From positions 62,001 through 126,000 of the forward strand of contig NZ_JBGCCU010000022.1 in the NCBI RefSeq assembly GCF_041261445.1: DNA of 64,000 nucleotides, in the 5' to 3' direction. The number at the start of each line of letters is the position of its first letter. The stretch's first letter is position 1. Position numbers and translations under genes: made by a program. The notes beneath the pieces are model-generated. The model saw nothing but the letters and a program-made list of their open reading frames with translations, ran no database searches and was not told the origin of the DNA. This DNA is from Catenulispora sp. EB89. GTDB taxonomy: Bacteria; Actinomycetota; Actinomycetes; Streptomycetales; Catenulisporaceae. Positions 1,041 to 15,257 of the stretch are shown here, one piece after another.

Positions 1041-1856
1041 GTGCCGACCGCGAGTTCCCCAGGTGTCGAGTCCGTGATCGACGCGATAGCCGAGTACGAG
1101 CTGAGATATCGCGACCGCACCGAGGAAGGGGAGTGCAGCGAGGAGGAGCTCCTGGAACTTCTCGACAGCTACCTGCCGGACCTGGTCTACGCCTTCGATA
1201 GTAAGGTCCCCCCGCCGCGCGAGCGCAGGGGGGCCTTGGCGCTGGACAAGGAGTACTACGAGTGGCACAAGATCACCAGCGGCGACCCCGAGACCCGCCG
1301 CGCCGCCGTGATCCGCTCCTACCTGGCCACCGAGACAGAGCGCCGGGGGCAGTTCCGCATCAGCCGCTCTCAGAACAGCCGCCTGGCCGACCACTTCGAC
1401 GCCATGGGCAAGGAGTTCATAGAGCTCGGCATGCCGGGACACGCGGCAGTGGCATATCAGAGCGCGGCCGACCTGTACCTGCCGCTTCAACAGAAGTCAC
1501 GGCGTGAACGTGCTCTGCTGAACTGGCGCCGGGCCCAGCACCTGGCGCGTCCCAGCGGCTTCCAGCGCTTCTTCGAAGGCATCTACGACGGCGTCTGCGG
1601 GTACGGATACCGTCCGTTCCGGATGCTGGGGTGGATGGCCGTCACGCTGGCGGTGTTCAGCGTGGTGGTGTGGCTGTCCGGCGGGCCCGGGTACGTGAGG
1701 TCGTTACACGGGTGTCTGATCGACTTCCTGAACCCGCTCTCGTTCGGCGACCTGGACAGTGCCTTCAGTGACCCGGCGCAGGTGTTGCTGATCATCGAGA
1801 GCTACGTCGGAAGCATCTCGATGGCCATCTTCTTCGCGTTCCTGGTCAGGGATTAG
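1041..1856 (+). CDS. membrane protein with helical cytoplasmic domain and 2-TM channel-like C-terminus (mirror-locus end gene, left)
   Basis: A 271-aa protein that I cannot name. Residues about 15-175 are charged and helical (acidic EEGECSEEELLELL near 30-40, then a TPR-like helical stretch about 105-170). Two hydrophobic helices follow: about 194-213 after the motif GYGYRPFR (187-194), and about 247-269. Between them the sequence NPLSFGD (231-237) sits where a K+-channel selectivity filter (T-x-G-Y-G-D) would be, but the filter residues are not kept. The protein at 13494-14390 shares the GYGY-P-R, NP-x-x-x-GD and E-x-Y-x-G-x-I elements and closes the other side of the mirrored locus. The GTG start at 1041 is favoured by a -10-like TAAAAT 6 nt upstream; a later GTG at 1074 is possible. 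It overlaps the convergent GNAT gene by 11 nt. Confidence 0.8.
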   Translation: MPTASSPGVESVIDAIAEYELRYRDRTEEGECSEEELLELLDSYLPDLVYAFDSKVPPPRERRGALALDKEYYEWHKITSGDPETRRAAVIRSYLATETERRGQFRISRSQNSRLADHFDAMGKEFIELGMPGHAAVAYQSAADLYLPLQQKSRRERALLNWRRAQHLARPSGFQRFFEGIYDGVCGYGYRPFRMLGWMAVTLAVFSVVVWLSGGPGYVRSLHGCLIDFLNPLSFGDLDSAFSDPAQVLLIIESYVGSISMAIFFAFLVRD

Positions 1857-2370
1857 CAGGGTAAGGATTCTTCACCAGCGACCGGTGCAGCACCTTGCGG
1901 GGCTCGCCGGTCCCGTAGTAGTCCGGCTGTTCGTCACCCTGCTGAGCGAACCCGAACCTCTGGTAGAGGCGGTAGGCGGCTTGGTTGTCGGGCCGCACGG
2001 TGATGTAGGCATCGGAGACATGTGCCTCCATCATCAACTCCAGCGCCCGCTGCATCAGCTGCCGCCCCACGCCTTTGCCCTGGTCCCGTTCGCTGACCGC
2101 CAGGCCCATCAGCCAGGCCTCGGTGTTGTCCGAGTTCGGACACACCAGAGCGTAGCCGGTCAGGTCGCCCTCGTATTCCGCGACCCACCAAGTCCTGCGG
2201 AACAGAACATACAGCGACTTCAGATAGACCATCGAGTAGGCCACGTCCTTGAAGACCTCTTTGTCGAGAACCTCAAGGGCGGCCAGATCGTCCTCCGCGA
2301 CGGGACGTAGGCGTACGTTGCCGGACGTTCTGGGATCGACAGAACTATGCGTCGCGGAGTTGGTGGTCAC
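1846..2370 (-). CDS. GNAT family N-acetyltransferase (arm A)
   Basis: A 174-aa GCN5-related acetyltransferase, transferring acetyl from acetyl-CoA to an unknown amine. The acetyl-CoA pyrophosphate loop is visible as RDQGKGVG following GLAVSE, and the C-terminal NQAAYRLYQRFGF helix is standard. The GTG at 2370 is chosen because an AGG-containing ribosome site lies just upstream; the frame is open back to an ATG at 2457 but that extra N-terminus (MPRAGSMPLKVV) does not look like a GNAT. It is the last gene of the leftward arm, 158 nt downstream of the SCO2521-like gene, so it may be co-transcribed with the arm or have its own promoter. The opposite arm also ends in GNAT genes. Confidence 0.85.
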   Translation of the reverse strand: MTTNSATHSSVDPRTSGNVRLRPVAEDDLAALEVLDKEVFKDVAYSMVYLKSLYVLFRRTWWVAEYEGDLTGYALVCPNSDNTEAWLMGLAVSERDQGKGVGRQLMQRALELMMEAHVSDAYITVRPDNQAAYRLYQRFGFAQQGDEQPDYYGTGEPRKVLHRSLVKNPYPANP

Positions 2371-2528
2371 GCACACCTCGTCTGAAGTCGGACGTTTACA
2401 GGTCGCTGATAGGGGGTATGGGACCACCTTCAAGGGCATGCTACCGGCACGCGGCACCGCTGCGTAGGGAAGTCACTCTTTTCAGTGTCCGTGGCTCGGC
2501 TCACGCTTGGTTCGCAAGCGTCGCGCCC

Positions 2529-3527
2529 CTAGAAGCGCCGGGGCGGCCTGATCTTCACCTGGTCCCTGAGGTCGCGGATCCGCGCGACCTGACGCTCGAA
2601 CAACCGCGTGTAGTGTGTCCGGCTCTCCATAGCTTCCCACAACGCCTTCATATCTGAGTTGAGGTGAGTGGGTGGCATCCAAAGTGGAACCAACTCGTTA
2701 AGGGCGAACAGGAGAGAATCCAGCGGATCGCGGTCGCGGGCGATGTCCGTCTCGGCCCGGGGCACGATGACGTCCTGCACGGTGGTCAACAGCCACTCGT
2801 GCAGGGCGAACTCCTCGCAGAAGCGGATCAGCGTCGGGAGATCCTCCGGTGCGCCGGTCAGCCGGATGACGTGGAAGTTCGGCAGGTCGCTCTTGGCTAT
2901 GCCGACCGTCGGCTTGGCGTCCGGCGTCAGGGTCGCGGCCCACCGGACCACGGCGGTGCCGGCCCGCAGCGCGGTGGTGTGGTTCAGGGTCTCGCTCTGC
3001 TGCACGTCGTCGATGATGCGGTCGCTGATCGAGGCCAGGTCCAGGCCGCGGGCCGGCGAGATGTCGGCCAGGTAGCCGTCGATGACGTTGTGCGGGCTCG
3101 GCGAGCCCAGGACCTCCACGACACCCTGGTGCCGCAGGTAGTGCCGCCACTCGCGGCGTTCCTTGGAGGTCGCCTCGGTGAGCGCCACATGTGCGGTGCC
3201 CTGCAGGATCCGGCCGTTGGTGACCACCGCGTGGCTCAATACGGTGCCGATGGCCCGGCCCCGGCCCTCGCGGGCCACGTGCAGCCGGCAGTCCACCCCG
3301 GTGACCTGCTCCGGGGAGACGACGCGGCGGACCGGCCGGTCCACCTTGCTCACCGGGGAGCCCGGGGTGAGCTGCATCAGGGCGACGCTCGCCGAGGGGG
3401 ACAGCGTGCCCAGGTTCTGGATCAGGCACGTGCGCACCTCGCCGAAGCCCAACCAGGGCTGCGTGCCGTCGTCGTGGACGGCCGGGCTCCGGTCCCGATC
3501 AGTCGTTGTGCGTGACATGGACGTCAT
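2529..3527 (-). CDS. SCO2521-like protein (arm A)
   Basis: A 332-aa protein of unknown function; the family name is recalled from the Streptomyces coelicolor SCO2521-SCO2524 gene set, not looked up. No signal peptide, transmembrane helix or known catalytic motif is visible. Shared with the arm B copy (11323-12303) are VVSPxxxxGxDCRL near residue 67-80, IGTxxxxAV, a LQG-A-V block, HYxxHxGV (about 129-136) and a C-terminal helical part with ALHEWLL and a long RxxDxV tail. The start overlaps the upstream SCO2522-like gene by 29 nt (ATG 3527; a second in-frame ATG is at 3518), which indicates translational coupling in a four-gene operon. Confidence 0.75.
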   Translation of the reverse strand: MTSMSRTTTDRDRSPAVHDDGTQPWLGFGEVRTCLIQNLGTLSPSASVALMQLTPGSPVSKVDRPVRRVVSPEQVTGVDCRLHVAREGRGRAIGTVLSHAVVTNGRILQGTAHVALTEATSKERREWRHYLRHQGVVEVLGSPSPHNVIDGYLADISPARGLDLASISDRIIDDVQQSETLNHTTALRAGTAVVRWAATLTPDAKPTVGIAKSDLPNFHVIRLTGAPEDLPTLIRFCEEFALHEWLLTTVQDVIVPRAETDIARDRDPLDSLLFALNELVPLWMPPTHLNSDMKALWEAMESRTHYTRLFERQVARIRDLRDQVKIRPPRRF

Positions 3528-4536
3528 CGAAGAACAAGTGGCTCACCCGACCGACGGGATTGTCGGGTAACGTGACCGGATTCGTCTCATCCCGGGCCCG
3601 GTCGGCGGTCTGCTTCAGGACCTTTCCGTCGAACCGCAGGTGGTCGACGATGATCTCGGCGGCGTGTTCGGCCGCCCGGAAGTGCGGCGGGAGTAGGGAA
3701 AGCACCTGATACGCGGCGAACGGGGCCGCATCCGGCGTCAGCTGGGTGATGCTCGGCAGCTGCGACCAAAGCTCCGGCAGGGCCTCGTTGGATCCGAACC
3801 GGTACGGTTTGGCCACCGCTTTACCGGCGTTGCGCAACAGGCCCAGCCGCAGCAGTTGCCACACCGCCGAAAGCAGTGAACACGAGTACTGCCGTTCGGC
3901 TTGCGGCATGGACTTGTCGACGCTCCACAGTTCGATGTCGACGAACACCGAGTGCTTGTACTTTCCGAACTCCTCAGGCGGATCCCAGTCCGGAGCATCC
4001 ATCGCCACCGCGACGGCGGGGGAGCGTTCGCCGTTGGACAGCCAGCCGGTCTGCGCCGTCGGCGGCCGGGAACCGTTGGCACCGACCGCGGCCTCCTCCA
4101 CGATCAGCCCGGCGACGATGTCCGCCAGCGCACTCCGGTCGCGCGGCCCGGAGTGCGGCCGCTCGCAGGCGATTGCGCAGCCGGCCTCCCGCGCCAGGTA
4201 GTCGATCCGGAATCCGGCCTGGTCGGCGGCGGCGGTGACGATGTCGACCACCTCCGAGGGCTTGGGCTGCTCCAGGCTCGAACTCGACGGCGTGTAGTCG
4301 TCGACCAGGAAGCAGGTGCTGATGCGGGCGTTGCGGCCGAACCGCTTGTGGATCCGCTTGCCCGCCGCCTCCAGCCACGGTGCCGCCTGCTCCAGCTGCC
4401 GGGCGATCTTGCGGTCGCCGTCGGCGAAGTCGTCCAGATACAGGTGCCCGGTCTCGATCGAGAGGTGGCCCAGCGGCACCGCTTCCACCTTCGTGCTCTG
4501 GGTCACCTCGTCGTATCTCACGTCCACGGCCGTCAC
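3499..4536 (-). CDS. SCO2522-like protein (arm A)
   Basis: A 345-aa soluble protein of unknown biochemistry. It aligns along its length with the arm B copy (10301-11323): LGHLSIETGHLYLDD near the N-terminus, STCFLVDDY, IDYLAREAGCA, RPPTAQTGWLSNG, HSVFVDIELW, RQYSCSLLSAVWQLLRLGLL and APFAAYQVLSLLP. The invariant CFLxDDY and RQYSC blocks suggest a functional site, though no enzyme fold is obvious to me. The GTG start at 4536 overlaps the stop of the P-loop gene as GTGA and has GGGAAGGA about 5 nt upstream. The frame continues open upstream to 5055, but that part lies over the P-loop gene and is not coding. Confidence 0.75.
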   Translation of the reverse strand: MTAVDVRYDEVTQSTKVEAVPLGHLSIETGHLYLDDFADGDRKIARQLEQAAPWLEAAGKRIHKRFGRNARISTCFLVDDYTPSSSSLEQPKPSEVVDIVTAAADQAGFRIDYLAREAGCAIACERPHSGPRDRSALADIVAGLIVEEAAVGANGSRPPTAQTGWLSNGERSPAVAVAMDAPDWDPPEEFGKYKHSVFVDIELWSVDKSMPQAERQYSCSLLSAVWQLLRLGLLRNAGKAVAKPYRFGSNEALPELWSQLPSITQLTPDAAPFAAYQVLSLLPPHFRAAEHAAEIIVDHLRFDGKVLKQTADRARDETNPVTLPDNPVGRVSHLFFDDVHVTHND

Positions 4537-5453
4537 AGTCCTTCCCAGAATCTCTCGTCCGACAGTTTCGCGGCGAGGTCCTCGAAGGCCTGCACGGTGG
4601 CCTGGTTGGCGATCTTCAGTCCGCTGACGTCGGAGTCGTCGATCACCTGCTCGCTCCACTGGAGCATCGGGTCGTAGGGGATCTGCCCGGCCAGGCGAGC
4701 CCGGCCCATGCGGAGCTTGTCGGCCTGCTCGCGCAGCCTCTGGTCGTAGCGGCGCAGCCAGGCGCCCTGCGCCGGGCGGGTCACCGACTCCTGATCCACT
4801 CCCAGGTCCACGACGGCGGTGCGGACGTAGCGAACGGAGTTGTTCAGCTTCAGGGGATCGTGGCCGCGGCGCTCGCCGGCCTTGAGTAGCCCCTTCTCGC
4901 CGAACACCAGGCCGTGCGCGGCCAGGATGTGCTGCTTGGTCCAGCGGTGGAAGACCAGCCAGCGGCTGGTCAGGGCCCTGAGTTCGAGCCGGGCGGTGGC
5001 TTCCAGGACCAGGTCGACGGCGTACGAGCGGCCCGCGGACAGGTCCACGATGCACAGGTCGAACTCCCGGTCCAACTTCAGGAACAGCTGCGCGCAGCGG
5101 GCCGGCATGTCGGCGCTGATCGAGAACTCCCCGCCGTCCTTGTCTCCGGGCAGCAGGACCAAGCGGCCTGCTCCGGAGATGCGCGGCAGGTCGCGCAGTG
5201 TGTCGCTGTCGGAGTGCAGCGCCGTGTCCAGCTGCTGGGCCTCAGTGTGCTTGGTGAAGTACGAGTGCAGACCCGAGGCGTCCACGCCGCGCTCGGCCTT
5301 CGGCACGTCGAAGATCGCGCCGGCGGTCGGCGATCCGAAGTCGAAGTCGAGATAGGCGACCGTCTCACCCTGCAACGCCCGTCGGTAGGCCATGTTGCAA
5401 CTGGTCACCGAACGCCCCGTGCCTCCCTTGTCGGAGGTAGCGAATATCAGCAC
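4533..5453 (-). CDS. SCO2523-like variant P-loop protein, ParA/MinD-like (arm A)
   Basis: A 306-aa protein with a ParA/MinD/ArsA-type fold. It begins with a hydrophobic strand and the loop DKGGTGRS (residues 8-15): the deviant Walker A signature lysine (K9) is kept, but the second lysine that normally contacts nucleotide phosphates is arginine (R14). A switch-like block DFDFGSPT (36-43) and a Walker B/switch II-like CIVDLSAGRS follow, then RWLVFHRWTKQH. The same R14 substitution in the arm B copy argues for selection rather than error. The GTG start at 5453 lies one base after the stop of the SCO2524-like gene, with AGGAG upstream. There is no ParB or parS-like neighbour, so plasmid partition is unlikely. 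Whether it binds or hydrolyses ATP is open. Confidence 0.85.
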   Translation of the reverse strand: MLIFATSDKGGTGRSVTSCNMAYRRALQGETVAYLDFDFGSPTAGAIFDVPKAERGVDASGLHSYFTKHTEAQQLDTALHSDSDTLRDLPRISGAGRLVLLPGDKDGGEFSISADMPARCAQLFLKLDREFDLCIVDLSAGRSYAVDLVLEATARLELRALTSRWLVFHRWTKQHILAAHGLVFGEKGLLKAGERRGHDPLKLNNSVRYVRTAVVDLGVDQESVTRPAQGAWLRRYDQRLREQADKLRMGRARLAGQIPYDPMLQWSEQVIDDSDVSGLKIANQATVQAFEDLAAKLSDERFWEGL

Positions 5454-5454
5454 G

Positions 5455-7293
5455 TCATGCGCTCCTGCTCGCTGCCTGGCGGGCGAAGGCCAGTTGGTCC
5501 AGGTCCCTGAGCACCTTGTCGGCCAGCGCCGCGGCGGTGGCCGGCCGTTCGGCGATCAGCCGTTCGGCGCGGTTCAGTGACTGCTCCGCCTCCCGCAGCA
5601 GCTTCTGTTCCTGGGAGCCGCCGGCCGTCGGCGTGGTCAGCCGTTCCTGGTCCAGGATGTGCCGGGCTTCGGCGATCTTGGCAGTGGCCTCGTCGACCTG
5701 ACCCTGGTCGGCCAGCGGCGGGGCGCTGATCAGCGTCGCGGCGGCGACGAAGACCTCGATGGCACGCTCGGTCATGTCCCAGGCGGGCGTGGCCGGCGCG
5801 GTCGCGACGCCGGGGTACAGGTTGGCGGGGTGGTCCCACAGCCCGTCGGGCTGCTGGTGTCGTCGGGCGAGCAGGTGCTCCACCACCGCGTCCGTGATCT
5901 CGATGAGGCGGGCCCGGTTGCGCCGGCTGGTGCTGACCCTGGCGACCCGCAGCGCGGTCTTGCCCAGCGTGGCGGCGAAGCCGTTGTAGGACCAGGCCAG
6001 CGCCGGCCCTTCCTTCTCCGATCCCTTCAAGGGCATCAGGACGCCGGGTTCGTGCAACAGGACCCCGCGGTCGTCCTCCGCCGCGCGCCGGCTCACCAGA
6101 CCGCGCTGGCCCAGTTCCTCCAGCACCGCGACACTCTTCCCGATGGTGCCGGTGTTGCCGCCGCCCTGCTGGGACAACGCGACGATGGAGAGCACCAGCT
6201 CGGTGAAGTAGGGCGAGCTCTGGCCGTCGGTGGACTGCCACGGCACGTCCTCGATCGGCCAGCGGGGGCCGGCGCCGAAGGTCGCGATCGTGGCCCAGTA
6301 CTGCAGGGCCAGACCCCAGCGCAGACTCAGGGCCTCACGCAGGGACTGCTGCTCGGACGTCAACAGCCCCTGGCGGGTGGTGCGGACGGAGAAGAGGTCG
6401 GACAGACCGTCGAGGGCGTTGACTGTGAAGTGCAGGACCGGACGGGATTCGGCGACGCCGTGCGGCTGGTTCACGCCTTCGGCGGATGGCAGATCGATGT
6501 CGGTGGCGTCCTGCGCCACCCCCCAGGCCCAACCGCACTCGAAGAAGCGCTCCGGATAGTCGCGCAGCATCCGCTCGTTCTCCGCCGGCAGCCCGAAGGT
6601 CAGCTCCGGGAGCTTGTCGCGCACCGGCTGCAGCTGGTCGCGCAGGTCCTGGGTCAGCGTGCGGCCCACGACCCGGCCCTGGCTGACCGTGCGCAGCAGG
6701 ACGGCTTCGGCGACCGAGTCGGGGTCCAGGACGTTGACCACGAAGGAACGCAGCAGGCCCACCATGGCCGCGGTCAGGCGGGTGTCCATGGCCAGGATGG
6801 CGGTGTCGATCCGACTCTGCAGGTCGCGCCGCTCGACCGTGCGCTGGAACTCGCGCAGGAAGCCCTTCGCCGACAGACAGAGGGTGACGGAGATCGAGTA
6901 CGACTCGGTGACGTCGAAGTCCAGCTGCTCGGGCTTCACCTCGGCGCCCGGCTCCTCGGTCAGCAGGTAGGAGCCGCCGCTGAAGGTCGGGCCGTCCTCG
7001 TCGGTGTAGCGCGCGACGTAGGTCTCCAGCGCCTCCAGCATCCGCATCGGGATGTCCAGGCCGCTGCCCATGGGCCTGAGCACCGCGAGCATGTCGTCCT
7101 CGATGGCGTCCGGACGGTCCAGGCGGAAGCCGGGGACTTCGGTGGCGGGGTAGAGCAGGACGAGGATCTGCTCGGCGTCGCTGATGCTGTTGGAGGCGTA
7201 GCGACCACCCCAGGCCCACTCCCCGCTGCTGAACGTCGAGCGCGCGAAAGCCCGCCACGTGTCCAGGATGTGTTGTCGTGGGTTCGTTCTCAA
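5455..7293 (-). CDS. SCO2524-like protein (arm A)
   Basis: A 612-aa protein of unknown function and the first gene of the leftward operon. The TTG at 7293 is preferred: it follows GGGGCGGAAG and makes the N-terminus (LRTNPRQHILDTW) match the arm B start (MRIEPRKQILDIW) exactly. An ATG at 7350 would add 19 residues but has no ribosome site. Blocks shared with arm B include GEWAWGG, SDAEQILVL, FECGWAWGVA, SRPVLHFTVNALDG, SLRWxL...YW and WPIEDVPW-x-TDGQ. The central part is helical; the last 100 residues are charged and probably coiled-coil. No transmembrane segment is seen. It is likely the large scaffold or effector subunit of the four-gene system, which is inference. Confidence 0.75.
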   Translation of the reverse strand: MRTNPRQHILDTWRAFARSTFSSGEWAWGGRYASNSISDAEQILVLLYPATEVPGFRLDRPDAIEDDMLAVLRPMGSGLDIPMRMLEALETYVARYTDEDGPTFSGGSYLLTEEPGAEVKPEQLDFDVTESYSISVTLCLSAKGFLREFQRTVERRDLQSRIDTAILAMDTRLTAAMVGLLRSFVVNVLDPDSVAEAVLLRTVSQGRVVGRTLTQDLRDQLQPVRDKLPELTFGLPAENERMLRDYPERFFECGWAWGVAQDATDIDLPSAEGVNQPHGVAESRPVLHFTVNALDGLSDLFSVRTTRQGLLTSEQQSLREALSLRWGLALQYWATIATFGAGPRWPIEDVPWQSTDGQSSPYFTELVLSIVALSQQGGGNTGTIGKSVAVLEELGQRGLVSRRAAEDDRGVLLHEPGVLMPLKGSEKEGPALAWSYNGFAATLGKTALRVARVSTSRRNRARLIEITDAVVEHLLARRHQQPDGLWDHPANLYPGVATAPATPAWDMTERAIEVFVAAATLISAPPLADQGQVDEATAKIAEARHILDQERLTTPTAGGSQEQKLLREAEQSLNRAERLIAERPATAAALADKVLRDLDQLAFARQAASRSA

Positions 7294-7524
7294 AGCTTCC
7301 GCCCCTGCCCTGACCTGCCCCGATTGCGCGTGCTCGGCCCCATGTCGCATGCGGGATCAGCACCGCGTTGTCTGCCAGCCAGAGCCCCTACCCACGATGA
7401 CGAGTTCTGATACATCCAGGTGGCGGGATTCCGGTGAGTCGCGCGGGGCTGCGGCGTGCGCCTATAGCATGGTGACCAGGAAACAGAGCTCTGACATGGT
7501 GATCTTCTCGGCTGGGAGGCCGCG
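7294..7524. promoter_or_regulatory. divergent intergenic region at the centre of the mirrored locus
   Basis: This 231-bp stretch separates the first genes of the two arms and must carry both promoters. For the rightward arm a ribosome site GGGAGG (7514-7519) precedes the GTG at 7525, and a TATAGC hexamer at 7463-7468 is a weak -10 candidate without a clear -35 partner. I see no strong palindrome. Its base composition is less GC-rich than the flanking genes. Confidence 0.5.
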
Positions 7525-9381
7525 GTGCGGATCGAACCACGGAAGCAGATTCTGGATATCTGGCGCTACATGCTGGAGTACTGCTACGTCGACGGCGAGT
7601 GGGTTTGGGGCGGTCGCGCCAAATCCAATCCCATCGCCGACGCCGAGCAGTTACTGTGCTTGTTCTGGCCGATGACGCAGATCGCCACGTTCAGCGTGCA
7701 CGATTCCGACGAGACACAGGCCGACGTGGCCGCCGCGCTGCGGCCGCTGGGTGAGGCGACCCGCATCCCGCGGACGCTCGTCGAGATCGCCCTGGAGTAC
7801 TTCAAGAACCACACCGATGCGGACGACGAGCCCCGGTTCGGGGCCGGCAGCTATCTCCAGGCCCTGGACCCGAACGCCACGGTGCCGACGGACGCCTCGA
7901 CGCAGGAACTCGAGGTCGTCGACGCGTATTCGATGTCGATCACTCTGTGCCTGTCGCTGCTGTTCTTCGTGGACTCGCGCCTGGAGCTGGAGATCCAGGC
8001 CAAGCACCGGGAGAACCTGCGGGACCTGCAACGCCGGGCCTCGCGGCGGCTGACCGCGGCGATGGTCGGCATGCTGCGCAGTTTCGTCATCAACTCGGTG
8101 ACCGTCGACTCCGACCCGGGCCGCGCCATCATCGAGATGCTACGGCAGGGCGACAGCACCGACGCCGAGATGGCGAAACGGCTGGCTGAGCGCTTCGAGC
8201 GCCTGCGTACCCAGATCACGACCTCCCTGCGCCTGGGTTTGTCCGACGACGCGAAGCCCGAGAAGGACCAACTCTTCGAGTGCGGGTGGACCTGGGGTAT
8301 CGCCAACGGTTCGAAGCCGATCGAGGAGGACTATGCCGTAGGGCTCAAGGTCTCGGAGAAGACCGGCTACGCGCAGTCCCGACCCTGGCTGTACTTCACC
8401 GTGAACGCGCTCGACGGCATCGTCGACTTCACCTCGCGCCGTGCCGCCGCCCTGAACGTCATGGACGACGGCCAGCGCGACCTCGCCGACGCGTTGTCCC
8501 TGCGCTGGGAGCTGACACAGCGCTATTGGTCGACGGTCGCCCGCTTCGACGCTGAGCGGTGGCCGCTGGAGGACATCCCCTGGCGTACCAGTGACGGCCA
8601 GGAGTCCGACTACTACTCGCTCCTGGTCATGTCCGTGCTGATCCAGGACCTGGTCGCGAGAACCGCCACCGACGCCGACCTGCTCAAGGCGATCGGCATC
8701 CTCCAGGAGCTGGCGCAGCGCGGCCGGATCACCCGCCGGATGTCCGAGGGCGACGAGGCGCTCGCGCTGCACTACCCGGGTGTGCCGCAAGGTCTGGGCG
8801 GCAGCGACGAGGCCGTCGGCACCGCACTGGTGTTGTTCACTTCGGACTACGCGCCGCTGATCATCAAACGGTCCCTCCAGGCCGCGCAGCTGACCGACGA
8901 TGTCGAGGCCCGCGAGGCGCTCATGGGCCTGGCCGAGGCGGCGATGGACCACCTGTACGAGCGGCGGATGACGCGCAACGGCGACCCGATCGAGCTCTGG
9001 GACGATCTCAGTGCCTTCCCCGGGATGACGGGCGTCAAGTTCGAGCAGCCGTCGTGGTATCTGACCGAGCGCGTGGTCGAGGCGCTGGTCGCCACCGCGA
9101 TCGCGTTCGAGCAGGAACCGCCGCGCAGCCCGGTGTTGTACGAGCATCTGCTCAGGCTCCTCAACGAGGCGGACCACGTCTACAACCGGGAGCTGCTGCG
9201 GTCGAACGTCTTCGAGAAAACGGCACTGCGTGACCGTCTGGAGGAGATCGGAACATTGATCGCGCGAGCTCGTGAGCTCAGCCGACGCCGCACGAGCACC
9301 GCGATCGCCAAGACGGAGGAGGCACTGCGGCTGCTGGACGCGCTGGAAGTGGCTCGTCTCGATGCCGGCCGGAGCCGCTGA
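7525..9381 (+). CDS. SCO2524-like protein (arm B)
   Basis: A 618-aa paralogue of the protein encoded at 5455-7293 and first gene of the rightward operon. The GTG start follows GGGAGG with 5-nt spacing. Conserved blocks are GEWVWGG, ADAEQLLCL, FECGWTWGIA, SRPWLYFTVNALDG, SLRWELTQRYW and WPLEDIPW-x-TSDGQ; regions between them are poorly conserved, so the copies diverged long ago or were acquired separately. The C-terminus (about 545-618) is rich in E, R and L and looks coiled-coil. It has no membrane segment and no recognisable enzyme motif. The next gene starts 1 nt after its stop. Confidence 0.75.
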   Translation: MRIEPRKQILDIWRYMLEYCYVDGEWVWGGRAKSNPIADAEQLLCLFWPMTQIATFSVHDSDETQADVAAALRPLGEATRIPRTLVEIALEYFKNHTDADDEPRFGAGSYLQALDPNATVPTDASTQELEVVDAYSMSITLCLSLLFFVDSRLELEIQAKHRENLRDLQRRASRRLTAAMVGMLRSFVINSVTVDSDPGRAIIEMLRQGDSTDAEMAKRLAERFERLRTQITTSLRLGLSDDAKPEKDQLFECGWTWGIANGSKPIEEDYAVGLKVSEKTGYAQSRPWLYFTVNALDGIVDFTSRRAAALNVMDDGQRDLADALSLRWELTQRYWSTVARFDAERWPLEDIPWRTSDGQESDYYSLLVMSVLIQDLVARTATDADLLKAIGILQELAQRGRITRRMSEGDEALALHYPGVPQGLGGSDEAVGTALVLFTSDYAPLIIKRSLQAAQLTDDVEAREALMGLAEAAMDHLYERRMTRNGDPIELWDDLSAFPGMTGVKFEQPSWYLTERVVEALVATAIAFEQEPPRSPVLYEHLLRLLNEADHVYNRELLRSNVFEKTALRDRLEEIGTLIARARELSRRRTSTAIAKTEEALRLLDALEVARLDAGRSR

Positions 9382-9382
9382 C

Positions 9383-10300
9383 ATGATGGTTTTCGCCTCG
9401 TCCGACAAGGGCGGTACCGGCCGGTCCGTGACCAGCTGCAATCTGGCCTACCGGCTTTCGTTGCTGGGTTACGATGTGGCTTATCTGGATTTTGACTTCG
9501 GTTCCCCCACCGCCGGTGCGATCTTCGAGATCTCCAGTCTGGAGCGCGGCACTGCCGAGGGTGGTCTGCATTCTTATATCCTCGGCAGAGTCGCGAAGCC
9601 GATGCGTGTGGACATCAGGGCTGTCACAGAACGCAATGATATGAAGACGCGTCCTCCGGGTTCGGGTAAACTGATGCTGTATCCCGGCGATGACGGAGGT
9701 GCAGAGTTCGCTTTGACGAAGCCGCACATCAAGAAGGCTATAGCGCTCTTCGAGCAGGTCGAAAGAGAATTCGACGTCTGCATCGTGGACCTGAGTGCCG
9801 GACGGTCGTCGGCGCTCGACATGTCTTTGCAGGCGGTTTCCCCGAACGTCCGCCCGCGCAGTGCCGATCCGGTAAGGTGGCTGCTGTTCCACCGCTGGAC
9901 CACTCAGCACGTGATCGCGGCCAGCGGACTGCTGTTCGGAACGAACGGGATCATCTCCTGCGCCGCCAACGCGGGATTCGGCGCGTCGGAATTCACGGAT
10001 CTGGTCCGGACCATCCGCACCGCGGTACCCGACAGCACTGCCTTCGGCACCAACGCCGTGCCCGAGCAGGAAGCCTGGCTCCGCGAGAGTGATGACATCC
10101 TCAAAGGCCTGGCGAAGACCCGCCATCTCGGGCAGGATTTGCTTGCTGGCACCACACCGTTGGAGCCGATGCTGCTCTGGCGGGAGCAGGTCATCTTGGA
10201 CGTCGACGTCAAGCGCAACCTGGCGAAGCAGGCGACGACCGACGCGTTCGACAAGCTGGCTCACAAGGTGATCAACAGCCACGCCTGGGAAGGCTTCTAA
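9383..10300 (+). CDS. SCO2523-like variant P-loop protein, ParA/MinD-like (arm B)
   Basis: A 305-aa paralogue of the arm A P-loop protein. The loop SSDKGGTGRS (residues 6-15) again carries arginine instead of the Walker A lysine, followed by LDFDFGSPTAGAIFE, CIVDLSAGRSSA and RWLLFHRWTTQH. The start is the first ATG of an ATGATG pair immediately after the upstream stop, with GGAG about 9 nt before it; the frame is open further upstream only as overlap with the previous gene. Codons such as TAT, GAT, TTT and GTT are more frequent here (9450-9850) than in arm A, so this half of the arm may have a different origin. It presumably works with the adjacent SCO2522/2521/2524-like proteins. Confidence 0.85.
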   Translation: MMVFASSDKGGTGRSVTSCNLAYRLSLLGYDVAYLDFDFGSPTAGAIFEISSLERGTAEGGLHSYILGRVAKPMRVDIRAVTERNDMKTRPPGSGKLMLYPGDDGGAEFALTKPHIKKAIALFEQVEREFDVCIVDLSAGRSSALDMSLQAVSPNVRPRSADPVRWLLFHRWTTQHVIAASGLLFGTNGIISCAANAGFGASEFTDLVRTIRTAVPDSTAFGTNAVPEQEAWLRESDDILKGLAKTRHLGQDLLAGTTPLEPMLLWREQVILDVDVKRNLAKQATTDAFDKLAHKVINSHAWEGF

Positions 10301-11323
10301 ATGGTGACATATACGTCGTCCCAGGCCGCCGAACCGCCAGCTCCGGTCTTTAGCGAACATCATCGGGATATGGCGGTAAAGCAACTGTCGCTTTCTCATC
10401 TGTCGGTCGAAGTCGGCCATTTCTACATGGAAGACCTCGAGGGCGATGAAGAGCCGATCCTGACCCAGTTCGAGCGAGTCAAACCGTGGCTGGAAGCGGC
10501 CAAGGCATCGGTGATCTCCGGAGACAGCAAGCCGCGCGTCAGTACGTGTTTTCTTATTGACGACTATTTCCAGTCCTGGCCCGATGCTCCCGAAATTATG
10601 GAGAGGTTGTTGCGCCTGTCGATGCGGGCGGGAGTGACCATCGACTATGTCGCCAGGGAATCCGCGTGTGCGCGTCGCAAGGACGGGTTCGCCGTGGCCG
10701 AGCTGCTGGCCACCAGGCTGCTGGAAGAACCGGAACCGGATCACGACACAGGTGGCCGTCCGCCGACCATCGCCACTGGGTGGCTCTCCAACGGCAGACC
10801 CGCCCGTCAGGCCACCATCCTGAACGCGATGGAGGCCCACACCTGGGAAGCGCCGCTGGAGTACGGCAAGCGCAATCACTCGATCTACGTGGACGTCGAA
10901 CTTTGGCGGGACGACGCGGAACCGGGAGCGGACCGCGAGGACGCTCTGAGTCGGCGGCAGTACTCCTGCCCTTTTCTGGCTGCGGTCTGGCAGCTCGTCC
11001 GGCTCGGACTGTTGCGCAAGGACGGCATCCCGGCGTTGGAAGTCACCGATTTCGACGGCGAGTGGAAGGCGGAGTGGAGCCATTTTCCCGACATCATCAA
11101 GGTGAACCCCAACGCCGCGCCGTTCTACGCGTATCAATCACTGAGCATCATGCCGCAGAACTTCCTGCCCATCGAGACCGCGGTGCGGAACATCGTCGAC
11201 CATTTCGTGTTCGAGCGGGACGTCATGGCCAAGCTGGACCGGCGCGCACAGCAGGAGAACGTCTCGGTGCCGGACGTCATCTCCCAGCGGATGAGCCATC
11301 ACTTCCTGCCAGGCGGGAAGTGA
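10301..11323 (+). CDS. SCO2522-like protein (arm B)
   Basis: A 340-aa paralogue of the arm A protein at 3499-4536. Conserved blocks in order: LSHLSVEVGHFYMEDL, PWLEAAKA, VSTCFLIDDY, IDYVARESACA, RPPTIATGWLSNG, HSIYVDVELW, RQYSCPFLAAVWQL, APFYAYQSLSIMP and NIVDHF. The ATG start abuts the TAA of the P-loop gene and GGGAAGG lies about 7 nt upstream. A later ATG at 10370 would remove 23 poorly conserved residues and is an alternative. No membrane segments. Function unknown. Confidence 0.75.
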   Translation: MVTYTSSQAAEPPAPVFSEHHRDMAVKQLSLSHLSVEVGHFYMEDLEGDEEPILTQFERVKPWLEAAKASVISGDSKPRVSTCFLIDDYFQSWPDAPEIMERLLRLSMRAGVTIDYVARESACARRKDGFAVAELLATRLLEEPEPDHDTGGRPPTIATGWLSNGRPARQATILNAMEAHTWEAPLEYGKRNHSIYVDVELWRDDAEPGADREDALSRRQYSCPFLAAVWQLVRLGLLRKDGIPALEVTDFDGEWKAEWSHFPDIIKVNPNAAPFYAYQSLSIMPQNFLPIETAVRNIVDHFVFERDVMAKLDRRAQQENVSVPDVISQRMSHHFLPGGK

Positions 11324-12303
11324 TGGCGCGACCCGTTGCGCCGTCGTCAGAAACGACATCGCCGCACCAGCCGCAGGTCGTCCTCGGAGCGGTGACGACC
11401 GGCCTCCTGAACACCTCGGAGCCGCTTCCCCTGGATGCCGCTCGACAGGCGCTGGCGCTGGTCCCCGGTGTCGAAGCCGACTGGCGGCAGTATCCCGTGG
11501 AGCAGGTGGTGTCTCCTGACTTGTACCTCGGCTTGGACTGCCGGTTGGCCGTCAGCTCCGGTTCCCCACCGAGGATCATCGGGACCGCGCGCGCCCGTGC
11601 GGTCCTGACCGCGGGGCACTTCCTGCAAGGCTCGGCGCGCGTGGATGTCCTGCTCGGCGCATCGAAAAGACGACTGCCCTGGTCCCACTACATGGCCCAC
11701 ACCGGGGTTGCTGAAGCGATCAACAAGGCCCGCCCCGCCGACATCGTGACGGGATTCCTGGAGGACCGGCCGGCGAAGTCCATTCTGGACCTCGGCAACA
11801 CCGGTGCGCACGTGATGTCTCTCCTGGACGAGGTGCCACAGATTGACAGACGGGCCCGGCTCAAGACGCAGACCCACCGGCTGCTGTGGGCGGCGCTGGT
11901 TCAGGAGGACGTCGAACCGGACGGTCACGTCGAGGCTGGTGACGACGGCGTTTTCCGGGTCCAGATGTCCATGCCGTCGGAACTGCTGCCGGATTTCATG
12001 GAAATGTGCGAGATCCTCGCACTGCACCACTGGCTGCTGGCCGCACTGAAGAATGCCTTCGATCGCTCATCGCGCACGGGACCGAGCGCGGAGCGCGAAC
12101 TCGAGGCGGCGTTGAGCTATCTCGGGCATGTCTGGAACCCGAAGGCGCATCTGCCCCATGCGATGCGGTGGTTCTGGGACGCGTTGGAAGACGCGGCCCA
12201 ACTGTCTTGGGAATGGCAGACAACTTTGACGCGTGTTAGGGACAAGGTGTCGCTGTTGACACGAAAAGCCATCGAAGAGACTCTACTCAGAGAGGTTCTA
12301 TAG
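11323..12303 (+). CDS. SCO2521-like protein (arm B)
   Basis: A 326-aa paralogue of the protein at 2529-3527, beginning at the ATG that shares one base with the preceding stop (TGATG), with GGCGGGAAG upstream. The frame is open far to the left only because of the high GC content. Shared blocks: VVSPDLYLGLDCRL, IIGTARARAV, FLQGSARV, HYMAHTGVAE, ILALHHWLL and a helical RVRDKV tail. Function unknown; it closes the core four-gene set of the arm. Confidence 0.75.
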   Translation: MARPVAPSSETTSPHQPQVVLGAVTTGLLNTSEPLPLDAARQALALVPGVEADWRQYPVEQVVSPDLYLGLDCRLAVSSGSPPRIIGTARARAVLTAGHFLQGSARVDVLLGASKRRLPWSHYMAHTGVAEAINKARPADIVTGFLEDRPAKSILDLGNTGAHVMSLLDEVPQIDRRARLKTQTHRLLWAALVQEDVEPDGHVEAGDDGVFRVQMSMPSELLPDFMEMCEILALHHWLLAALKNAFDRSSRTGPSAERELEAALSYLGHVWNPKAHLPHAMRWFWDALEDAAQLSWEWQTTLTRVRDKVSLLTRKAIEETLLREVL

Positions 12304-12325
12304 GGCTCTATAGTCAGGGGACGGG

Positions 12326-12769
12326 GTGGGGGACCCGCTGTCAGTACGGACGGCGTGTGAGAAGGATCTGCCGCGAATCGCAGAGCTCGAAGACCTGGTC
12401 TTCGAGGGGACCGGCTTCAACCGGTCCACTCTGACGCAACTCTTCGGCCCGTCGGGGGCGACCTGGCTGGTGGCGGAGGACGGGGAGGGCATGTGGGGCT
12501 ATTCATTCAGCGTTCGGGCCACCGACGACCCCGAGGTCGGGTGGATCCTGGCGCTGGGAGTGCATCCCGAGCGGCGGGGGCTGCACATCGGTCTGCGACT
12601 GCTGGACGAGTCCATCCTGGAGTTGCAGAACAAGGGGATCAGCACGATCAAACTCACGGTCAAGCCGCACAACAAGCCGGCGTATGACATGTACATCCGC
12701 GCCGGATTCCAGGACACCGGTCAGTGGAAGGACGGCGACCTCGGTGACGGGAGCGTCGCAAGATACTGA
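12326..12769 (+). CDS. GNAT family N-acetyltransferase (arm B, first)
   Basis: A 147-aa acetyltransferase. The acetyl-CoA loop is RRGLHIGLRLL after ALGVHPE, and NKPAYDMYIRAGF is the usual C-terminal helix. The GTG start lies 22 nt after the SCO2521-like stop with a purine-rich AGGGGACGGG before it, so it is almost certainly in the operon. Its N-terminus (DLPRIAELEDLVF) resembles that of the next GNAT gene (DLRRIAELEAKAF), indicating a tandem duplication. Substrate unknown; the repeated pairing of this system with GNAT genes suggests a modification step. Confidence 0.85.
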   Translation: MGDPLSVRTACEKDLPRIAELEDLVFEGTGFNRSTLTQLFGPSGATWLVAEDGEGMWGYSFSVRATDDPEVGWILALGVHPERRGLHIGLRLLDESILELQNKGISTIKLTVKPHNKPAYDMYIRAGFQDTGQWKDGDLGDGSVARY

Positions 12770-12973
12770 CCCTGCTTCTACCGGTCGTGTGACCGTGAGT
12801 CACCTTCAAAAGTGGCACGGTGGTCAGGGGGCGCGTGACGTGCGTCTTAGCTCTCATCGTCGCGAGGTCTCGACGGGGATACCTCATCTGACGCTTTCGG
12901 CAAGCCTGAACCGGGTACACCCGGAGAGGAGATCGTTTGGGCAATGGATGAGGACTCCTGGAGGAGAGACTTC

Positions 12974-13519
12974 GTGAACGAGCTTCCCTCTCCGCGGCTG
13001 CGCGGTGTCAAGAAGAATGACCTGCGCAGGATCGCCGAGTTGGAAGCGAAAGCGTTCGGTTCCTACGGCGTGATCGACAACGATCTCAAGGTGATGTTCG
13101 ATCCGTCGGGGCCACTGTGGATGCTGGCCGAGGACGACGAGGCGATCTGGGGCTACTCGGTTAACCTCCGAGCCGCAGACCCGACCGTGGGGTGGATCGC
13201 GGGGATGGCCATCCATCCCGCCCGCCAACGGCACGGCTGGGGGCAGCTTCTGTTGCAGGCGACCATTGACCGCCTGCATGACTACGACATGAGAGTGATC
13301 CGGCTGCTGGTCAAGCCGAGCAACAAGGTGGCCCGCCGGCTTTACGAGAATTTCGGCTTCATCGACACCGGCGAGCGCGACAATCACTTCGGGCCAGAAG
13401 AACCGCGGATGCTCATGTCTTTGCTGCTCGACCATCCGGTTGCTTCGCCTCGAATCCGACCGGAAGTGCCGGCGGATCCGGATGCCTTCGCCGTCACAGG
13501 CGGAACCACTTGCGAATGA
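12974..13519 (+). CDS. GNAT family N-acetyltransferase (arm B, second)
   Basis: A 181-aa acetyltransferase with the loop RQRHGWGQLLL after GMAIHPA and a C-terminal NKVARRLYENFGF helix. The GTG at 12974 is preferred over the in-frame ATG at 12944 because GGAGGAG lies 7 nt before it and the resulting N-terminus matches the neighbouring GNAT. It lies 204 nt downstream of the first GNAT and may have its own promoter. About 25 proline-rich residues extend past the GNAT fold at the C-terminus, and the gene overlaps the convergent membrane-protein gene by 26 nt. Confidence 0.85.
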   Translation: MNELPSPRLRGVKKNDLRRIAELEAKAFGSYGVIDNDLKVMFDPSGPLWMLAEDDEAIWGYSVNLRAADPTVGWIAGMAIHPARQRHGWGQLLLQATIDRLHDYDMRVIRLLVKPSNKVARRLYENFGFIDTGERDNHFGPEEPRMLMSLLLDHPVASPRIRPEVPADPDAFAVTGGTTCE

Positions 13520-14390
13520 GCAGCACGAAGAACACGTTTCGTAGGATATCGCCGGTATAGGTCTCCACTTCCAGCGGCGTTTCCCACGTTGGCGAGATGC
13601 TCTTCACATCTCCCAAGCCTATCGGGTTCACGAAGTTCTGGAGAGTCATGAAAAGCGCGTCGCCGCGCGTGGCTCCCGGATTACGGGTCAGATGCAGCAG
13701 ATAGACGGCGAACCCGGCGATGACGACCACGATCCAGACTAGCAACCGCATCGGCTTGTACCCATATCCGACCAACCACCGCAATGGCAACCCGACGAAG
13801 CGCATCGGATGCCACCACGGATACGTTCTGCGGTGTGCCTCGAGCTGCCAGTACTTACAGCGGTCTTCGGCTTGCGCGTCCCTGATACGCGAGTGGACGG
13901 TTGCTGCCTCGTCGAAGGCCCGCTCCGCGAACAGGGAAAACCCCATGGATAGCAGACTTTTACCGGTTCGCTCGAGTGATTCGGCGATGACGCGGCCCTC
14001 AGCGCGGCTCAGGAAAACTCGGCCGTTTGCCTCCGAGCGGGCAGCCAGCAAGGTGGCTATCAGGTCGGCGTACGGTTGGCTGAGGCGAGGGGTGCCGTCG
14101 TAGAACTCTTCGAGGACGAGTGGCCCCGGGCGGGTGGAGGACGCCGCCCTGGCAAAGCTTTGCTGCACCCTGACGTTGATGTGGTCGAACTCTGCGACCG
14201 CCTCCTGCTCCCTGGAGCTGCCGTGTACACGGCTGTAGTCCGCCGGCTCCGACCGTAGGCGCGGCAGCCTCGTCCGTTTGTAGCGCTGGCCGCGCTCCAG
14301 ATCCTCAGCAATGCTGGCCGCGCGTGACTCGACCGCGGATTTGAACGTGGCCAGCCGTGCTTCGCCGCCCTGCTCGGTAGTCCCTACCAC
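13494..14390 (-). CDS. membrane protein with helical cytoplasmic domain and 2-TM channel-like C-terminus (mirror-locus end gene, right)
   Basis: A 298-aa counterpart of the gene at 1041-1856, placed convergently at the other end of the mirrored locus. Residues 1-205 are charged and helical. The block FLSRAEGRVIAESLERTGKS (126-145) corresponds to FRISRSQNSRLADHFDAMGK in the left protein. GYGYKPMRLLVW (208-219) leads into helix 1 (about 214-233); NPIGLGD (255-261) occupies the pore-loop position, and helix 2 (about 275-293) contains E-x-Y-x-G-x-I. The protein resembles a 2-TM ion channel with a degenerate filter; ion conduction is not demonstrated. GTG start at 14390 is uncertain because no clear ribosome site precedes it. 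Confidence 0.75.
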   Translation of the reverse strand: MVGTTEQGGEARLATFKSAVESRAASIAEDLERGQRYKRTRLPRLRSEPADYSRVHGSSREQEAVAEFDHINVRVQQSFARAASSTRPGPLVLEEFYDGTPRLSQPYADLIATLLAARSEANGRVFLSRAEGRVIAESLERTGKSLLSMGFSLFAERAFDEAATVHSRIRDAQAEDRCKYWQLEAHRRTYPWWHPMRFVGLPLRWLVGYGYKPMRLLVWIVVVIAGFAVYLLHLTRNPGATRGDALFMTLQNFVNPIGLGDVKSISPTWETPLEVETYTGDILRNVFFVLLIRKWFRL

Positions 14391-14456
14391 GTCTGGCCTG
14401 CGCGTCGCCGATCCACCGCATCCCCCTGCGAACAGCCGTGACCGACTTCGAGTATG

Positions 14457-15257
14457 TCAGAACCGGTACTCGAAAGGCGTCGTCACGCTCAAAGCCCGGA
14501 ACCCCAGCCGCTCCAGGATCGGCCGGCTCATGTCCGACGCGTCCACCTGCAAGTACTCGCACCCCAGCTCCACAGCCACCTCCATCCGTCGTGCCACCAG
14601 CGCGCGGTAGATGCCGCGGCCGCGCCAGCCCGGGGCGGTGCCGCCGCCCCAGAGGCTGGCGAAGCCGGTGCCGGGGTGGAGGAGCATGCGGGCGGCGCTC
14701 ACCGGGCGGTCGCCGGCCATGGCCAGCCAGGTCCAGACCGTGTCCGGGTCGTCGGCCAGGCGGGCCAGGGCGCGGGCGCGGGCTCGGTCGCCGCCGCTGC
14801 CGAAGGCCGCGTCGGCGGCTTCGGCGACCAGGTCGGCGTCGGCTTCGGTGGTGACCGGGCGGAGGGTGACGCCGTCGGGGAGGGGCACCGCCAGGCCGGC
14901 GGCGGACAGCTGTGTGATCTCCGCCACGAACAGGGTCTCGGGGTCGTCGGCCACGAAGCCGGCGGCGCGCAGGCGGGCGTCCAGGTCGGCGGGTTCGTCG
15001 TGGCGGTAGTGCTTCCACTCGAAGTCGGCGCCGAGGGTGCGGAAGTAGGCGATCTGCTTCTGGATCGCGGCGTCGGCGGTGGCGGCGTCCAGGTCGCTGT
15101 ACAGGACTCCGTGCCAGTCCGTGGGGTGTGCTCCGAGCTGGCGGACGACGCCGTCGGCCTTCTCGACGCGCGCGCCGGGTTCGTCGGGTTCGGCGGTGGC
15201 CCGCATGCGCACGTCGAAGGTTGCGAGCAGGTCCTTGTCCGGGGTGGGGGAGGTCAC
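14457..15257 (-). CDS. GNAT family N-acetyltransferase
   Basis: A 266-aa protein whose C-terminal half is a GNAT fold: PLPDGVTLRPV begins the domain, GGGTAPGWRGRGIYRALV carries the acetyl-CoA loop (R-G-R-G-I) and YLQVDASDMSRPILERLGF is the final strand-helix. The N-terminal 110 residues may be a degenerate second GNAT domain. The GTG start is followed by TSPTPDKDLLATFD. It is convergent with the right end of the mirrored locus but separated by 66 nt and not obviously part of it. Substrate unknown. Confidence 0.85.
   Translation of the reverse strand: MTSPTPDKDLLATFDVRMRATAEPDEPGARVEKADGVVRQLGAHPTDWHGVLYSDLDAATADAAIQKQIAYFRTLGADFEWKHYRHDEPADLDARLRAAGFVADDPETLFVAEITQLSAAGLAVPLPDGVTLRPVTTEADADLVAEAADAAFGSGGDRARARALARLADDPDTVWTWLAMAGDRPVSAARMLLHPGTGFASLWGGGTAPGWRGRGIYRALVARRMEVAVELGCEYLQVDASDMSRPILERLGFRALSVTTPFEYRF

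Follow-up and report, generated by a model that had tools for sequence, protein, structure and literature searches.

The DNA analyzed here is a stretch of 64,000 nucleotides (the window; positions 62001-126000 of contig C22) from an 11.9 Mb genome of Catenulispora, an actinomycete of soil. It carries two copies of a four-gene core encoding proteins of the SCO2521, SCO2522, SCO2523 and SCO2524 families, which diverge from a shared intergenic centre and are accompanied by genes for GNAT acetyltransferases and for a membrane protein with two transmembrane (TM) helices. The two copies diverged long ago and have been kept together; each represents a chromosomal module of actinobacteria made up of this core, a dedicated GNAT and a membrane partner. 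We designate the core genes A (SCO2524), B (SCO2523), C (SCO2522) and D (SCO2521), the two-TM partner T and the GNAT G. Arm I is the left arm, on the minus strand (T1 on plus), and arm II is the right arm, on the plus strand (T2 on minus). Loci and genomes used for comparison carry L numbers and three-digit G numbers, respectively.

1041..1856, plus strand: T1, membrane protein of arm I with a helical N-domain and a predicted pore-like two-TM domain, 31% identical to T2
1846..2370, minus strand: G1, GNAT of arm I, core-linked family; the open reading frame (ORF) is open to 2457 and the start is unsure
2529..3527, minus strand: D1, SCO2521 family (NF040565, 275 bits, cut-off 150)
3499..4527, minus strand: C1, SCO2522 family (NF040566), with a class I aminoacyl-tRNA-synthetase (aaRS)-like (HUP) fold in its predicted structure
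4533..5453, minus strand: B1, SCO2523 family, MinD/ParA-like P-loop protein with KGGTGRS for KGGxGKS/T (NF040564, 444 bits, cut-off 200)
5455..7293, minus strand: A1, SCO2524 family (NF040567, 677 bits, cut-off 300); start placed by homology, ORF open to 7350
7294..7524, no strand: divergent intergenic centre, 231 bp, with conserved blocks
7525..9381, plus strand: A2, SCO2524 family, arm II (NF040567, 695 bits)
9383..10300, plus strand: B2, SCO2523 family P-loop protein, arm II (NF040564, 418 bits)
10301..11323, plus strand: C2, SCO2522 family, arm II (NF040566)
11323..12303, plus strand: D2, SCO2521 family, arm II (NF040565, 307 bits)
12326..12769, plus strand: G2a, first GNAT of arm II
12944..13519, plus strand: G2b, second GNAT of arm II, overlapping T2 by 26 bp
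13494..14390, minus strand: T2, membrane protein of arm II with a helical N-domain and a predicted pore-like two-TM domain

All eight core proteins pass the cut-offs of the NCBIfam equivalog models (348 and 349 bits for the two SCO2522 proteins, cut-off 200), in agreement with the families assigned in a preliminary description of the locus. That description had also reported an identical gene order in the two arms and a convergent, slightly overlapping membrane-protein gene at the end of each. Both were found again: the order read outward from the centre is SCO2524-SCO2523-SCO2522-SCO2521 on either side, and T is convergent in both arms, T1 overlapping G1 by 11 bp (1846-1856) and T2 overlapping G2b across 13494-13519. 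A GNAT does follow each core as described; however, the right arm has two, which are 40% identical to each other, and the left arm has one. Identity between the arms is 37.7% for A, 47.0% for B, 41.4% for C, 30.7% for D, 31.2% for T and 26.0-28.7% for the GNATs. The longest inverted repeats between the arms pair homologous genes.

The centre extends from the TTG start of A1 at 7293, which agrees with the starts of its homologues, to the GTG start of A2 at 7525. Its length is kept in three species, as the N-terminal motifs of the two SCO2524 proteins lie 256 bp apart in the window, L125 and L124. Four aligned loci share invariant blocks in this region, including TCTGATACAT and ATAGCATGG, which are possible promoter elements. 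A promoter and terminator scan gave counts near chance (2 sites vs. 1.3, and 8 vs. 5.5).

The genes beside the core were examined in 77 loci, comprising 25 of the 27 loci of one search (two weak non-family matches were dropped) and 52 regions from 49 further genomes, namely 36 other genomes of the class scoring above the SCO2523 cut-off and 13 other genomes of the family. Loci L034-L038 were dropped, the same species being already present in the second set, and L044, L119, L122 and L136 were skipped for incomplete cores. Neighbours were identified with iterative profiles seeded with the window proteins. The final set holds 79 arms, 77 of them outside the window; it includes near-copy rows (e.g. 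L097/L098 and L110/L111), and the counts are not independent. In 31/77 arms T is no more than 1.5 kb away from the core (one of them, L124a, has a broken T), and in 35/77 the same holds for an alternative membrane protein, M, with an N-terminal TM segment and a DUF6879 domain. The dedicated GNAT family is found within 5 kb in 58/77 arms, and a SCO2525 methyltransferase within 1.5 kb in 28/77. The GNAT and two-TM genes are thus frequent rather than rare companions of the core elsewhere. The earlier proposal that core, GNATs and membrane proteins form one module is well supported, and it is likely that they act as one functional unit at the membrane.

No arm of the 77 has T and M together beside one core. 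Eleven have neither: L130a, L130b (where the flank is 905 bp), L054a, L118, L132 and six Glycomyces arms. In the Glycomyces arms (L042, L045-L049) SCO2521 is encoded on the strand opposite to A-B-C, and neither T nor M, and neither a linked GNAT nor SCO2525, was found in the flanking sequence that was read. In a tree of the concatenated core, 36 T-side rows fall on one side of a branch with an SH-aLRT (Shimodaira-Hasegawa-like approximate likelihood ratio test) value of 100, and the swap between T and M is a single change on this tree; 31 of the 34 outside-window arms in the T clade carry T beside the core. We read this as a single slot for a membrane partner with two alternative occupants. 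The surrounding order varies with the occupant. Nocardia loci have A-B-C-D and then, encoded on the other strand, T and the GNAT. In most loci of family f2 (presumably Streptomycetaceae, in the same taxonomic order as the window genome) and many of family f19 the order is GNAT, SCO2525, A-B-C-D, M, and in Kibdelosporangium the GNAT follows M. SCO2525 was not found beside T-type arms. Hydrophobic N-terminal segments were seen in the eight of 37 M proteins that were looked at, and of 24 members scanned, 21 match DUF6879 at the C-terminus, with E 7e-11 at best; the first member falls slightly short of the gathering score. No relative of M was found in the PDB.

The distribution of T follows that of the core. 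Full-length T is present in five of 394 genomes of the class, all five core-bearing, and in none of the 357 genomes without SCO2523 above the cut-off; within its own genome it occurs only at the two places in the window. Partial matches to the T profile (approximately positions 143-226) occur in ten other class genomes and at a third place in the own genome. The GNATs are similarly set apart. With 112 GNAT domain matches in 11.9 Mb, approximately 0.13 would be expected per 13.3 kb, and three are seen. The linked-GNAT profile scores G1 at 210 bits and G2b at 196 bits, and the other GNATs of the genome at 80 bits or less. The core-linked set used for tree building consists of 61 rows scoring at least 120 bits (fragments of a broken copy at 83-98 bits were left out), compared with 24 other GNATs of the own genome, drawn from 28 non-module loci among the 112 matches. 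The free tree requires three changes of the linked label, and a tree keeping the linked rows together is 14.4 log-likelihood units better (p 0.8 in the approximately unbiased, AU, test). The sequences are compatible with one origin of the linked GNATs, though they do not prove it.

The preliminary description had argued against a recent duplication of the arms. Consistent with core identities of 31-47%, AU tests on 52 of the 79 arms reject a single clade of Catenulispora arms for A (p 1.5e-7), B (p 0.003) and C (p 0.0097), and a recent duplication is rejected with it; D (p 0.19) cannot tell. The trees of A, B and C, in which the arms are not sister copies, place them alike, so the expected agreement among core genes held for these three, whereas D did not resolve. 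The trees of A, B, C and the concatenated core place arm II together with Nocardia and two f19 genomes (SH-aLRT 96-100), and arm I with other Catenulisporaceae (SH-aLRT 82-99). In the T tree arm II sits on a long branch whose placement is not settled, and the test of one Catenulispora clade is not significant (p 0.275). Both an old duplication and a gain of arm II from a Nocardia-like source fit these data. Both arms are under purifying selection. Comparing the window with its nearest relative, L125 (Nei-Gojobori counting, a single species pair, G2a left out), the ratio of nonsynonymous to synonymous substitution rates is 0.05-0.18 for the core and T1 of arm I and 0.42 for G1, and 0.12-0.26 for the core of arm II with approximately 0.30 for G2b and T2. 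We consider the anatomy, linkage and history of the locus to be solid.

SCO2523 scores above its cut-off in 37 of the 394 class genomes, and with up to five candidates scored per genome the own genome is the only one in this sample with two copies. It is present in 14/14 genomes of the family. The SCO2523 sequence of the window genome is 92-98% identical to that of Catenulispora records, from which the genus was taken to be Catenulispora. At least two core copies occur in all ten Catenulispora genomes, the own genome included. The arm pair lies on one contig within approximately 7 kb in nine of these and on two contigs in G403. Four of the nine are divergent (G000, G400, G401, G405) and five convergent (G398, G399, G402, G404, G406); in the convergent form, a block of type II T, GNAT, D, C, B and A has swapped place with the arm I core. 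Because convergent L123 is sister to divergent L124, and convergent L131 to divergent L130, in the tree of the arm I core, more than one switch of arrangement has taken place.

Just outside T2 is an additional GNAT from a different subfamily, 266 amino acids long (14457-15257, minus strand). It adjoins the module in divergent and convergent arrangements alike, and its orthologue cluster consists of 13 loci, found only in Catenulispora and in 9/9 of the other Catenulispora genomes. Partial, highly diverged extra copies of the core are present at L122 (D and B only, G398) and L136 (A-B-A, G397), where the SCO2523 rows form very long branches.

The preliminary description had proposed that two specificities are kept side by side in the two arms. 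This is not supported. When the 13 other genomes of the family were searched in full, every Catenulispora genome proved to keep at least one full-length T. However, the number of T genes does not follow the number of cores. Both T types occur in G399, G401, G403 and G406 (an internal TGA reported for the type I match of G406 is the end of an ORF otherwise read as open). G398, a single contig, combines two complete cores with a single full-length T, which is of type II. In G400 the type I T is intact and the type II T is in pieces (L124, 1333-1903). G405 has one T, on a different contig from the arms; type II T is missing from its place and both cores are kept. One T each was found in G402 and G404, where contigs or assemblies are incomplete. 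In the five convergent genomes the T that follows the arm I core, at a distance of 162-173 bp and in the same orientation, is of type II by the T tree (L121a, L123a, L126a, L129a, L131b). T is shared, and it is lost more readily than the core. Because T can be shared, broken or placed behind the core of the other arm, two insulated specificities with their own channels are argued against, and the single T of G398, the fragmented type II T of G400, the absence of type II T from its place in G405, and its position behind the arm I core strain the two-specificities reading. Broken GNAT genes also stand beside intact cores, one split across two frames (L123, 6689-7121, G399) and one a remnant (L125, 14648-14895, G401). 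Two cores with a single T are also seen at L054 of Nocardia sp. SYP-A9097, where two complete, diverged cores in tandem (ABCD-ABCD, 2972-14925) precede one T and two GNATs in the 17 kb covered.

The SCO2523 protein carries KGGTGRS in 80 of 83 rows, with arginine where the deviant Walker A motif of ParA/MinD proteins, KGGxGK(S/T), has lysine, and is therefore not a member of that group by motif. B1 matches the CbiA domain (E 6e-6). SCO2523 matches the KGGVGR-motif variant AAA ATPases of NF047398 (E 9e-10) and shares the Walker A arginine with them; however, B1 and B2 score 39.2 and 34.8 bits, below the family cut-off of 90. MinD/ParA-like domains are predicted to be inactive in VMAP and peptide-processing conflict systems, according to PMC7159879; unlike the domains described there, SCO2523 is a stand-alone protein.

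The predicted structure of SCO2522 shows the class I aaRS-like (HUP) catalytic-domain fold, and the protein is probably an enzyme of this kind. The likeness to class I aaRS and to MshC is one of predicted fold, without a match in sequence: an hhalign comparison with ArgRS (23 rows) and MshC/CysRS gave probabilities below 1%, and comparisons of A, B and D with these enzymes found nothing either. S-x-E-x-G-H is found in 75 of 80 SCO2522 rows within the predicted strand 20-30, which makes its equivalence to HIGH uncertain; HIGH and KMSKS could not be placed. A reading of the invariant ExGH as a degenerate HIGH motif was withdrawn, since the predicted strand continues on both sides of it. PDB profile searches of A, C and D found nothing useful (best E 0.089, A to YacP).

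The pore domain of T is predicted to be channel-like, without a canonical filter. Its predicted structure has the TM1, pore helix and TM2 arrangement of voltage-gated-like cation channels, and an invariant glycine in TM2 is kept. At the filter position, 18 aligned T proteins have an invariant N255-P256 followed by a variable stretch, often G-x-G-D, and none has a TVGYG-type potassium-channel filter. A PDB profile search of T gave E 1.2 or worse, and Pfam nothing usable. The channel-like character given to T in the preliminary description holds for the predicted fold and found no support beyond it. T shares a GYGYRP linker and TM1 with actinobacterial pentapeptide-repeat membrane proteins (hhalign 96.9%, E 1.7e-10), and two partial T matches that were opened, L143 and L178, are C-termini of such two-TM proteins. 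However, the N-domain of T is helical and TPR/SNAP-like where those proteins have a repeat domain, and the pore loop also differs. T also resembles in predicted fold, though not by sequence match in the PDB profile search, the HalA channel (PDB 9nyi), with a Z score that is middling for helical proteins. HalA is described as the effector channel of the Hailong defence system, with HalB as its nucleotidyltransferase, in PMC12657230 and PMC13275509.

Searching the open-licence literature by tag or family name, we found no functional study of the SCO2521-2524 core. All that this search yielded was a co-expression result and, for the neighbour SCO2525, a cited role in growth or morphogenesis; a morphogenetic role of SCO2525 is mentioned in PMC6344877 and its dependence on S-adenosylmethionine in PMC3017869. 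The families were named before, and the window shares four of them with the S. coelicolor SCO2521-SCO2525 set (NCBIfam NF040564-NF040568). In contrast to that set, no SCO2525 methyltransferase or M was found; T and one or two GNATs are present instead, and there are two copies. This T- and GNAT-bearing two-copy arrangement is a new variant of the SCO2521-2524 set.

With a probability of about 0.4, we propose that a nucleotide-switched core acts on a pore or receptor in the membrane and thereby serves growth and development. We infer that SCO2521-2524 would form a cytoplasmic complex, with SCO2523 as the nucleotide switch and SCO2522 as a HUP-type enzyme, which may dock on, or signal to, the membrane partner. 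Where the partner is T, the helical domain would receive the signal and the pore-like domain would be the output. M takes this slot in Pseudonocardiaceae (e.g. Kibdelosporangium) and in many other genomes, some presumably Streptomyces. The GNAT, together with SCO2525 in most M-type loci, may modify a component or a ligand. Control of growth or development seems a likelier purpose than phage defence. In a more specific and distinctly speculative form, SCO2521-2524 would be the centre of a novel type of signalling device in actinobacteria: an aaRS-derived enzyme and an altered MinD/ParA switch would make or carry an acetyltransferase-tuned signal that opens T, as a pore lacking a canonical filter, or engages M, as a DUF6879 receptor, and Catenulispora would run its two diverged cores on shared pores.

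Mycothiol synthesis uses a GNAT, MshD, and the locus could likewise be a small-molecule pathway in which SCO2522 is an MshC-like amide ligase, the GNAT and SCO2525 modify what the ligase makes, and T or M serves as exporter or receptor. We regard this as possible but doubtful, as SCO2522 and MshC have no sequence-level link, the HIGH and KMSKS motifs were not placed, no methyltransferase was found beside T-type arms, and G1 is most like RimI protein acetyltransferases (62.9 bits, below the model cut-off). The likeness to HalA could instead point to an anti-phage or abortive-infection system with T as effector channel. This is improbable: nine proteins (arm I core, GNATs, T1 and T2) gave only weak partial GNAT and P-loop matches in PADLOC-DB 2023 (E 2.7e-5 or worse), searches of plasmid, phage and viral-contig collections for SCO2523 were negative, both arms are kept in 10/10 Catenulispora genomes, M replaces the channel in 35/77 arms, and a growth role is cited for SCO2525. 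The same negative search led us to drop a role as mobile-element cargo, although the collections are incomplete and the viral-contig scan used exact peptide patterns.

T might also be a mere membrane anchor, a dead pore, for a MinD/ParA-like positioning complex. N255-P256 in place of TVGYG, and M as an alternative occupant, would suit an anchor; the predicted pore helix and invariant TM2 glycine would be needless for one, and we hold this to be unlikely. That the neighbours are chance companions of the core is scarcely credible, despite the 19/77 arms without a linked GNAT and the 11/77 without T and M, given linkage conserved in Nocardia, Catenulisporaceae and family f19, the confinement of T, within the class sample, to genomes that have the core, and three GNATs in 13 kb against 0.13 expected.

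Streptomyces coelicolor locus tags are the only names that the core families have, and the families are uncharacterized. Mutually exclusive T and M partners, a dedicated GNAT, a variant Walker A motif and an enzyme that is probably aaRS-like provide concrete, cheap hypotheses for this orphan system in filamentous bacteria. With two cores and variable numbers of T and GNAT genes, Catenulispora is a natural experiment in its function.

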